DNA of 39,961 nt from Candidatus Woesearchaeota archaeon (lineage in GTDB: Archaea > Nanobdellota > Nanobdellia > Woesearchaeales > UBA10216). The translations under genes were made by a program, and so were the position numbers. The notes under the pieces are model-generated. The model saw only the letters and a list, made by a program, of their open reading frames with translations. It made no database searches and was not told where the DNA came from. This document shows, piece after piece, positions 18,215 to 20,274 of this stretch (within the stretch, counting starts at the first letter, position 1; every line of letters begins with the position of its first letter). The stretch spans positions 1-39,961 of the forward strand of contig JACPIH010000021.1 of assembly GCA_016188155.1 (NCBI GenBank), in the 5' to 3' direction.

Positions 18215-18874
18215 TCAGAACTCACCAAGCTTCTTCTGCCACTTGCCATCAGCCTTCTTCCTGTAAGGGGCCCAGCTTTTCCTGAAAATATCCGGATAAA
18301 CCTCAAAGTACTTGTCAAAAAACTCAATCGTCTTCGGATCAGTGAGGTAGCCGCTGCCGAAGTCCTCAACAACCACTTTCTTAATCTTTTCTATTTCCTC
18401 ATCCCTGGTAACTTTCGCTAGTATTGAAGCGGCAGAGCACTCAACATGGTTAACGTCAGCCTTGTGCTCAACAACGGCCTCAACCTTCTTGTTATCAAGC
18501 AGCTTCATAAGGTATTTCTTGTAGTTAACAACGTTGTTGCTGGGGCTGTCGATGATGATTTTTTCAGGATTCAGGGAATTGATAATCTCTGCTGACTTGT
18601 GCGCCTCAAGCCAGTTGAGGTTCATGCCGTCATCAGACTTAACAGAAGCATCAATCTCGGCGGGGCTTATAATGACGATTTTGTAATCTTTGACAATCCT
18701 GACTATCTTGCCAAACAGCTGCTCCCGCTGCTTTGGAGTTAAAAGCTTGGAATCCTTAGTGCCAATCTTTTTCAACTCGGTTGCACCGGCTTCATCAGTC
18801 AGCACGCCGCACATCACCATCGGGCCGATGACCGGGCCGCGACCGGCTTCGTCAATGCCGCACACCAAAACCAT
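18215..18874 (-). CDS. rnhB: Ribonuclease HII
   Basis: A 219-residue endonuclease that cuts RNA in RNA-DNA hybrids and at misincorporated ribonucleotides. Metal-binding residues sit in GIDEAGRGPVIGPMV (D8, E9), in IIIDSPSNN and in ECSAASILAKVTRDEE, the archaeal/eukaryotic type pattern. The reading frame extends 5' into the initiator tRNA gene, but ATG 18874 (MVLVCGIDEAGRG) is the family-consistent start, leaving 62 bases to the tRNA 3' end. It could be co-transcribed with the tRNA upstream. The downstream 110 bases hold no convincing gene. Confidence 0.95.
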   Translation of the reverse strand: MVLVCGIDEAGRGPVIGPMVMCGVLTDEAGATELKKIGTKDSKLLTPKQREQLFGKIVRIVKDYKIVIISPAEIDASVKSDDGMNLNWLEAHKSAEIINSLNPEKIIIDSPSNNVVNYKKYLMKLLDNKKVEAVVEHKADVNHVECSAASILAKVTRDEEIEKIKKVVVEDFGSGYLTDPKTIEFFDKYFEVYPDIFRKSWAPYRKKADGKWQKKLGEF

Positions 18875-18936
18875 GACGCAACAATCGTGGTTGCTGTTTT
18901 TAATGTTGACGGTTTTGCAAAAGAAAGTGAAAATAT

Positions 18937-19085
18937 AGCGGGGGTAAGATTTGAACTTACGACTTCCACCCCAGACGGCTTTTAACCCTCTGGCGTCTGT
19001 GGGTCTCCCAACCAAAAGTGGTTATGAGCCTTCCGAAGCAGCAGGTCTCTGCTACACCGGGCACTCCTGGCTGCCCTACCCCGCT
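18937..19085 (-). tRNA. Initiator tRNA-Met (CAU) with three predicted introns
   Basis: The 149-base gene begins AGCGGGG and ends CCCCGCT (acceptor, minus strand), has the archaeal initiator D-arm sequence AGCCAGGAGT between GGGC and GCCC, anticodon loop CTCATAA, and T-arm GTAAG TTCAAAT CTTAC. Removing three segments gives a 74-base tRNA with anticodon stem GTGGG/CCCAC and variable loop AGGTC. Intron 1, 19054-19031 (24 nt), interrupts the anticodon stem between positions 29 and 30. Intron 2, 19022-19005 (18 nt), lies at canonical 37/38. Intron 3, 18996-18964 (33 nt), lies in the variable loop. Each cut fits a bulge-helix-bulge: CCGG:TCGG with bulges TGT and AAG; CTCA:TGGG with TAA and AGA; CCAC:GTGG with AGA and AAG. 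No CCA is encoded. Confidence 0.9.
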
Positions 19086-19110: not shown

Positions 19111-19118
19111 TTTATAAA
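19111..19118. promoter_or_regulatory. Palindromic bidirectional TATA box, tRNA-iMet / EamA gene
   Basis: TTTATAAA reads identically on both strands. It is 26 nt from the tRNA 5' end (19085, minus) and 24 nt from ATG 19142 (plus), and is the only AT-rich box in the gap. Confidence 0.6.
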
Positions 19119-19141: not shown

Positions 19142-20044
19142 ATGGTCCTGCCTGAATTGCTGCAGTCAAAAACCGCTGAACTTATGGCAGTAGCCTCTGC
19201 AGCACTCTTTCCGCTCGGGCTGATTTTTCTCAAAAAGGGTTACGACCACTCCACTCCGCTTTACGGAACGCTAATTGTCACGGCAATTAATGCGGTCTTG
19301 TTGTGGCTTTTTGCACTGCTTTTTTCGTCCCTGCCGATAACTGTAATATTCTCATCTGCAGTAATATTCTTCATAATCGCTGGTGCAATCGGCCACGGCA
19401 TAGCCAGGCTGCTGCAATTTACAGGCGTTGACAAGGTTGGACCGGCAAGAAACACAATAGCATTAGCGACTTCAGCGCTGTTTGGGGCAGTAATAGCCAT
19501 ACTTTTTAGGGGAGAAAAGTGGACCCTGCCAATATTTTTAGGAACGATGGCAATAGTTGGAGGAATAGCTGTTCTAGCCAGGGAGAGCAAGAAGACAAAA
19601 TGGAATCCTGCCTACCTTGCTTTGCCAATAACCGCAGCATTTCTTTACGGAATCATGACCAACATCTACAAAGTGGGGCTTGAGAAAATACCTGATGCTG
19701 CAATAGGGGCAGCTGTGGGTCTAACTGCAGCGTTATTTACGCTTACGGTTGTGGCTGCTGCATCAGCAGTGAAAGGACCTGGCAGAATCAAAATTCCCAG
19801 CTTAGGAAAAGCAATGCCATTGTTCCTGGCAGCAGGCATCATAAACAGCCTGGGATTGATTCTCAACTTTGAAGCCATAAAGCTTGGCGATGTTACGGTT
19901 GTTTTTCCGCTGATAAGCGCGCAGCCGTTATTTGCAACGGTTTTTGGGCATTTATTTTTACGTCAGACTGAAAGAATAAGCTGGCACGTAGTTCTTGGAG
20001 CAGTTATCGTTGTGGCTGGTATTGTCATGATTACGGCGTTTTAG
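19142..20044 (+). CDS. EamA/DMT-family permease
   Basis: A 300-residue integral membrane protein with about ten hydrophobic helices in two repeats, ending with the DMT-type LGDVTVVFPLISAQPLFATV and VVLGAVIVVAGIVMI. DMT permeases export or import small metabolites such as amino acids or nucleotide sugars; the substrate is not predictable here. The transcript is probably leaderless because the ATG sits 24 nt from the TATA box shared with the divergent initiator tRNA. A second EamA-type permease lies at 24414-25307 and is not closely similar. Confidence 0.88.
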   Translation: MVLPELLQSKTAELMAVASAALFPLGLIFLKKGYDHSTPLYGTLIVTAINAVLLWLFALLFSSLPITVIFSSAVIFFIIAGAIGHGIARLLQFTGVDKVGPARNTIALATSALFGAVIAILFRGEKWTLPIFLGTMAIVGGIAVLARESKKTKWNPAYLALPITAAFLYGIMTNIYKVGLEKIPDAAIGAAVGLTAALFTLTVVAAASAVKGPGRIKIPSLGKAMPLFLAAGIINSLGLILNFEAIKLGDVTVVFPLISAQPLFATVFGHLFLRQTERISWHVVLGAVIVVAGIVMITAF

Positions 20045-20149: not shown

Positions 20150-20274
20150 GCCGCGGTCGCGTAGCCTGGTATCGCGGTGGATTGCTAAAAACCTCGTGTT
20201 TTTCAGAGACCTACGATACCACACAGAAATTCACTGTCCGAAAGGACTCGGGGGTTCAAATCCCTCCCGCGGCG
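20150..20274 (+). tRNA. tRNA-Ser (GCU) with one intron
   Basis: Acceptor GCCGCGG pairs with CCGCGGC, discriminator G. D-loop is AGCCTGGTA, anticodon stem GTGGA/TTCAC, loop TTGCTAA with anticodon GCU, a class II variable arm containing GTCC GAAA GGAC, and T-arm GGGGG TTCAAAT CCCTC. Removing 41 bases (20188-20228) at the canonical 37/38 position gives 84 bases. The bulge-helix-bulge is relaxed (three of four central pairs). The intron has a hairpin AAAAAC/GTTTTT and an eight-base stretch, CGATACCA, exactly complementary to TGGTATCG in the D-arm. CCA is not encoded. Confidence 0.9.

Follow-up and report, generated by a model that had tools for sequence, protein, structure and literature searches.

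The stretch of DNA analyzed here, in its entirety called the window, comprises 39,961 nucleotides (nt) of contig JACPIH010000021.1 from a Candidatus Woesearchaeota metagenome-assembled genome (MAG). It contains a gene for the initiator tRNA-Met(CAU) that is interrupted by three introns, each bounded by a bulge-helix-bulge (BHB) motif. The parts of the gene are:

18937-19085, minus strand: interrupted initiator tRNA-Met(CAU) gene, tRNA positions 1-72, 149 nt
19055-19085, minus strand: exon 1, tRNA positions 1-29
19031-19054, minus strand: intron 1, 24 nt, site 29/30
19023-19030, minus strand: exon 2, positions 30-37, GGCUCAUA
19005-19022, minus strand: intron 2, 18 nt, site 37/38
18997-19004, minus strand: exon 3, positions 38-45, ACCCACAG
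18964-18996, minus strand: intron 3, 33 nt, site 45/46 (variable loop)
18937-18963, minus strand: exon 4, positions 46-72 (T arm and 3' acceptor strand)

Along the minus strand, from 19085 to 18937, exons and introns alternate as AGCGGGGTAGGGCAGCCAGGAGTGCCCGGTG, TAGCAGAGACCTGCTGCTTCGGAA, GGCTCATA, ACCACTTTTGGTTGGGAG, ACCCACAG, ACGCCAGAGGGTTAAAAGCCGTCTGGGGTGGAA and GTCGTAAGTTCAAATCTTACCCCCGCT. Excision of 24, 18 and 33 nt leaves a mature tRNA of 74 nt, AGCGGGGTAGGGCAGCCAGGAGTGCCCGGTGGGCTCATAACCCACAGGTCGTAAGTTCAAATCTTACCCCCGCT, with 21 of 21 stem pairs formed, an A1-U72 pair, the anticodon stem GGG/CCC and the anticodon CAT. It carries the marks of an initiator, namely the AGCGGGG acceptor, CAU, the conserved D arm and the variable loop AGGUC, and its initiator consensus is that of the uninterrupted genes in the order. 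A73 is found at 18936, next to the gene, and CCA is not encoded.

At all three junctions, the central helix is paired at 4/4 positions, the bulges are 3 nt long and the cuts (marked ^) fall after the second bulge base. Intron 1 has the central helix CCGG:UCGG, bulges UG^U and AA^G, and the inner helix AGCAG/CUGCU closed by the loop AGACCUG; intron 2 has CUCA:UGGG, bulges UA^A and AG^A, and a weak inner helix; intron 3 has CCAC:GUGG with bulges AG^A and AA^G. With three BHB introns, the gene belongs among the multiple-intron archaeal tRNA genes; a split or permuted arrangement was not seen, all exons being ordered within the 149 nt. An earlier note on this DNA, made from the sequence alone, had proposed an initiator tRNA at this place, with three introns of these lengths and boundaries, BHB motifs at each and insertion at 29/30, 37/38 and the variable loop. 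All of this was borne out, and the last site could be refined to 45/46 (AG^...^GTC).

Detection of the gene and its copy number

The gene was delineated with a splicing-aware dynamic-programming parser that permits introns anywhere and scores stems and BHB motifs. Its score of 101 compares with a mean of 56.7 (standard deviation 5.1, maximum 77) for a null set in which the part behind the D arm was dinucleotide-shuffled 1000 times, with introns allowed. BHB pairing is given a small weight in boundary placement, and the 29/30 boundary is already fixed by the mature sequence in a parse without any BHB weight.

Routine scans return a different picture. ARAGORN at default settings reports 0 genes at the locus, and Rfam gives no match at the gathering threshold (RF00005 is subthreshold, at 16.5 bits). 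Because routine annotation misses the gene, an apparent lack of an initiator tRNA in MAGs of this kind may be an annotation artefact. When introns are allowed, ARAGORN calls the locus tRNA-Phe(aaa) with one 68-nt intron, which would imply fewer, longer introns or another identity. That fold, however, leaves out two features conserved in all orthologs, the loop with CAU and the anticodon arm of the initiator, whereas the three-intron parse is perfect and agrees with the uninterrupted initiators known from the order, so that the tRNA-Phe reading has hardly any likelihood. Self-splicing (group I or II) or mobile introns, in place of BHB introns processed by an endonuclease, might also be considered, given that group I introns are reported in archaea, in a paper that names Woesearchaeota (PMC6125680). 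Nevertheless, a ribozyme would not fit into inserts of 18-33 nt, the 3-4-3 BHB geometry is present at every junction, and no Rfam intron family matches the initiator region; the probability of this alternative is practically negligible.

The genome containing the window (G000) is a MAG of 1.075 Mb in 41 contigs, 88.7% complete and with 3.9% contamination. The earlier note had named an intronless second initiator gene, together with the lack of a spliced product from this locus, as an observation that would speak against it. No uninterrupted initiator was found in this 88.7% complete MAG with a 50-nt pattern allowing up to 3 mismatches, and the D-arm search produced a single match. Many other tRNA loci of G000 (L001-L030) seem to have insertions of 32-68 nt in the anticodon loop; ARAGORN assigns them to Gln, Ala, Glu, Leu and Lys, identities that are uncurated.

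Distribution and intron sites among relatives

The 29/30 initiator intron is present in 29 of the 288 genomes of the order, whereas an initiator contiguous through the variable loop occurs in 116 of the 288; among the 29 intron-bearing genomes, only G141 has both. In addition, 40 named contigs match the 29/30 intron pattern, nearly all of them titled Woesearchaeota or Nanoarchaeota. The initiator locus of G003, a genome of the same genus (L046), is identical to L113 on JACPBZ010000020.1, a Candidatus Woesearchaeota contig, in agreement with the placement in the DPANN archaea suggested in the earlier note. The comparison with related genomes that the note had called for likewise came out in its favor: orthologs from the same genus and the same family have their introns at identical positions of the mature tRNA.

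About 55 distinct initiator genes were parsed. Introns were counted at sites 29/30 (43), 37/38 (38), 59/60 (12), 45/46 (11), 43/44 (10), 15/16 (9), 53/54 (6) and 13/14 (5), numbers that are not unbiased frequencies because the gene set was largely collected with the 29/30 pattern. The exon-intron helix is paired at 4/4 or 3/4 positions at most junctions, 45/46 being the least regular (5 of 11 below 3/4).

The number of introns rises among the relatives. In the genus to which the window belongs, three introns (29/30, 37/38 and 45/46) are found in G000 and G003 and four in G001, whereas the 211-nt genes of G007 (L151) and G002 (L153) have five, at 15/16, 29/30, 37/38, 45/46 and 59/60, of which 15/16 lies in the D loop and 59/60 in the T loop. 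Five introns were also obtained for G012 (L117), from another genus of the same family, by a hand-forced parse; what had appeared as a 51-nt intron at 43/44 was rejected there, as the forced parse resolves it into separate 37/38 and 45/46 introns at a higher score. Four-intron initiator genes occur in several further families. Five-intron genes recur in named contigs from different projects (loci L122, L137 and L117; contigs JACPTF010000016.1, DUGG01000073.1 and JAFGRH010000043.1), which argues against assembly error. Reviews state three introns as the maximum per archaeal tRNA (PMC4033280, PMC8450103), and more than half of the tRNA genes are multi-intron in the Asgard lineages Atabeyarchaeia and Freyarchaeia (PMC11291895). 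Five introns exceed the published maximum only as far as the literature searched goes.

Among the remaining candidates, L044 was rejected as a false parse, L053 was excluded from the refined set, and L079 is cut by a contig end. L041 (G008:C26) is an initiator-like sequence with a damaged acceptor stem and the anticodon CGU that keeps a BHB insert at 37/38; it is possibly a pseudogene.

Covariation and promoter

The BHB helices covary between orthologs. At 29/30, across 28 distinct sequences, 96.9% of cells are paired, with 61 two-sided changes compared with a shuffled mean of 19.1 (0 of 500 shuffles as high) and a covariation of 0.718 versus 0.184 in the shuffled set and at most 0.141 in slid controls. 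The motifs at 45/46 (6 sequences) and 53/54 (5 sequences) covary as well.

Two elements flank the gene:

19111-19118, minus strand: archaeal TATA box TTTATAAA, about 33 nt upstream of the initiator gene
18913-18935, minus strand: T-rich stretch TATTTTCACTTTCTTTT downstream of the gene, a possible terminator

A TATA-like element is found upstream of 36 of 42 parsed initiator genes. A sigma-70 promoter and terminator scan was set aside as not meaningful for archaea.

These data bear on the possibility that the locus is a pseudogene, an initiator gene that has decayed and acquired insertions, and that the working initiator is encoded in an unassembled part of the genome. The incompleteness of the MAG and the damaged-looking L041 in the relative G008 point in that direction. 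Against it, only exact BHB splicing yields a tRNA in which all 21 stem pairs and all identity positions of an initiator are intact, independent assemblies keep the splice sites while the intron sequences diverge with compensatory changes, and the TATA box is kept; we regard a pseudogene as very unlikely.

The neighboring genes encode ribonuclease HII (18215-18874, minus strand) and an EamA-family transporter (19142-20044, plus strand). About 1.1 kb from the initiator gene and divergent to it, a second interrupted tRNA gene is located at 20150-20274 (plus strand). It probably encodes tRNA-Ser(GCU), with a long variable arm and a 37/38 intron of about 41 nt.

Possible order of splicing

Intron 1 lies inside the anticodon stem, which serves intron 2 as its outer helix; C40-C43 are borrowed by intron 3. 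As long as intron 1 is present, the outer helix of intron 2 comprises 2 base pairs, and after its removal 5. Introns 1 and 3 are supported by hairpins of their own; intron 2, with almost no contiguous inner helix, may need the outer one. Closely spaced archaeal introns may require sequential removal (PMC8450103), and an ordered splicing pathway in the initiator pre-tRNA, which the earlier note took to be implied, is plausible. The geometric part of that proposal stands and favors intron 2 leaving last; the energies do not show this clearly, as nearest-neighbor values for the intermediates give no clear order in the window gene and differ between orthologs.

A motif in intron 1 may be relevant here. 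GACCT is present in 17 of 40 distinct 29/30 introns (0.7 expected by shuffling), usually in or beside the hairpin loop, compared with 4 of 97 other introns. It accompanies an intron near the variable loop in 13 of 17 cases versus 6 of 23 (Fisher p=0.003, uncorrected for shared ancestry). In the window (19031-19054) and in orthologs, the GACCU of intron 1 is complementary to the variable loop AGGUC, with which it might conceivably pair transiently, organizing the order of splicing. Descent from one ancestral intron may partly explain the conservation of GACCT.

Splicing endonuclease

A single endonuclease gene, encoding about 200 amino acids, was identified in G000 (C28:41987-42517, minus strand). 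The closest relative of its product in the PDB is the alpha subunit of Nanoarchaeum equitans, 3IEY_A, and the Tyr, His and Lys that are its candidate catalytic residues do not vary among the endonucleases of 13 relatives. The protein has no insertion at the site of the Crenarchaea-specific loop (CSL) of Aeropyrum pernix, nor any relative to Methanocaldococcus jannaschii there, and lacks the extra residues between Tyr and His of N. equitans. An acidic stretch near the C terminus, which we take to be an L10-like loop, is kept, unlike in N. equitans alpha. This structural reading is based in part on PMC6379350.

One endonuclease gene per genome was found in 18 of 20 genomes and none in the other two; a beta subunit was not found in these 20 genomes with the Pfam and clade profiles at E values up to 10. 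A weak second Pfam match in G000, considered as a beta subunit, was rejected as an unrelated frame. Because there is a single alpha-type gene and no beta was found, the enzyme is probably an alpha4 homotetramer of a single alpha. Non-canonical introns have been linked with the CSL or the ARMAN-type-specific loop (ASL) and with (alpha beta)2 or epsilon2 enzymes (PMC12397907). Because the endonuclease here seems to be devoid of both loops, the proposed link between CSL or ASL, the loops tied to broad specificity, and intron-rich tRNAs is challenged. The mostly strict BHB motifs fit a strict enzyme acting at non-standard sites, and such motifs may be an alternative route.

Introns in the ligase gene

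Outside the window, the rtcB gene of G000, which encodes the RNA ligase, is itself interrupted, by a 32-nt BHB intron (C15:3814-3845, minus strand; L156, L180). The unspliced frame stops after 67 amino acids, whereas the predicted spliced product has 473 and aligns end to end with RtcB of Pyrococcus horikoshii (2-473, E=1e-178). At this first site (HEG-Y-GFPIGG), eight family genomes have inserts of 29-32 nt; four have an insert at a second site (GGIG-Y-DVNCG), which lies close to the metal-binding DVNCG motif. In 12 of 12 rtcB introns, the central helix is paired at 4/4 positions and the bulges are 3 nt long. Excision restores the frame, and with it the conserved motif, within a conserved Tyr codon, as expected of a BHB intron in a protein-coding gene; other relatives are intact at the same site. 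Of 353 genomes from the order, 8 match the site 1 pattern; each of these belongs to the family of the window, and no control matched. The helices covary, for example from AAGG:CCUU to AGGG:CCCU; one of these covariation tests pools both intron sites. In contig C15 of G005 (L169), an open frame of 1001 amino acids contains RtcB, with the family match in two parts, 1-58 and 49-426, probably owing to an intein.

Since rtcB carries one or two BHB introns, its mRNA appears to need the same splicing machinery as the tRNA. As of 2009, archaeal pre-mRNA splicing had been confirmed only for cbf5 (PMC2738675), and the rtcB introns are a further candidate; further literature searches found no rtcB case, which is no proof of absence.

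Interpretation

With its anatomy, conserved splice positions, covarying BHB helices, promoter element and genes for both enzymes present, the locus is almost certainly a functional three-intron initiator tRNA gene of a Woesearchaeota-type archaeon, spliced by the endonuclease and RtcB. Transcription would give a pre-tRNA of about 150 nt, in which the endonuclease would cut both strands of the three strict 3-4-3 BHB motifs, and RtcB would join the exons into the 74-nt initiator tRNA. Less firmly, introns 1 and 3, whose motifs rest mainly on their own inner hairpins, might leave first, and intron 2, with the anticodon stem as its outer helix, last.

Several points weigh against this reading. Folding calculations do not favor the BHB conformers in the full precursor of the window gene. 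The inner helix of intron 2 is poor and the covariation at 37/38 is weak, the latter because there is hardly any variation on the exon side and the inner helix is short. The assembly is an incomplete MAG with some contamination and might therefore lack a second copy of the initiator. Transcription, cleavage, ligation, the subunit composition of the enzyme and any order of events are what we infer from the sequence.

Because the sole initiator gene found has three inserts and the ligase gene seemingly one too, the start of every protein in this cell appears to hinge on RNA splicing. We advance tentatively, with rather more doubt than conviction, the further idea of a closed splicing loop, in which the initiator requires 3-5 splicings and the rtcB mRNA 1-2 near active-site-loop codons. 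Functional RtcB could then be made only where RtcB, or a substitute ligase, already exists, and translation initiation would depend on a self-sustaining ligase loop and on a loop-less, alpha-only endonuclease. The window gene alone is a further multi-intron tRNA gene; what is newer lies in the relatives with five introns, in the introns of rtcB and in an alpha-only endonuclease that seems to lack the loops. A single-gene tRNA needed for every protein can apparently tolerate three to five introns, in very small genomes.

Comparison with known systems

Multiple-intron tRNAs of Thermoproteales (Pyrobaculum and relatives) were reportedly described by Sugahara et al. in 2008. The window gene resembles them in having several BHB introns per tRNA, at canonical and non-canonical sites, but belongs to another phylum with, by sequence, another type of endonuclease (alpha only and without CSL), and here it is the initiator that has three introns, and up to five in relatives.

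Nanoarchaeum equitans, of the same broad archaeal group, also has a disrupted initiator tRNA, with its junction at 37/38 (table in PMC3218864), and the endonuclease alpha subunits are closest relatives. However, N. equitans trans-splices two half genes and has an (alpha beta)2 enzyme, whereas the system in the window consists of one gene with cis introns, and no beta was found. In Thermofilum pendens, the initiator is permuted at 59/60 and has an intron at 37/38 (same table), both of which are intron sites in relatives of the window, but the rearrangement there is a permutation rather than added introns. Finally, the cbf5 pre-mRNA introns of Desulfurococcales and Sulfolobales differ from those described here in the gene affected, which in this case is rtcB, encoding the ligase of the splicing pathway itself.
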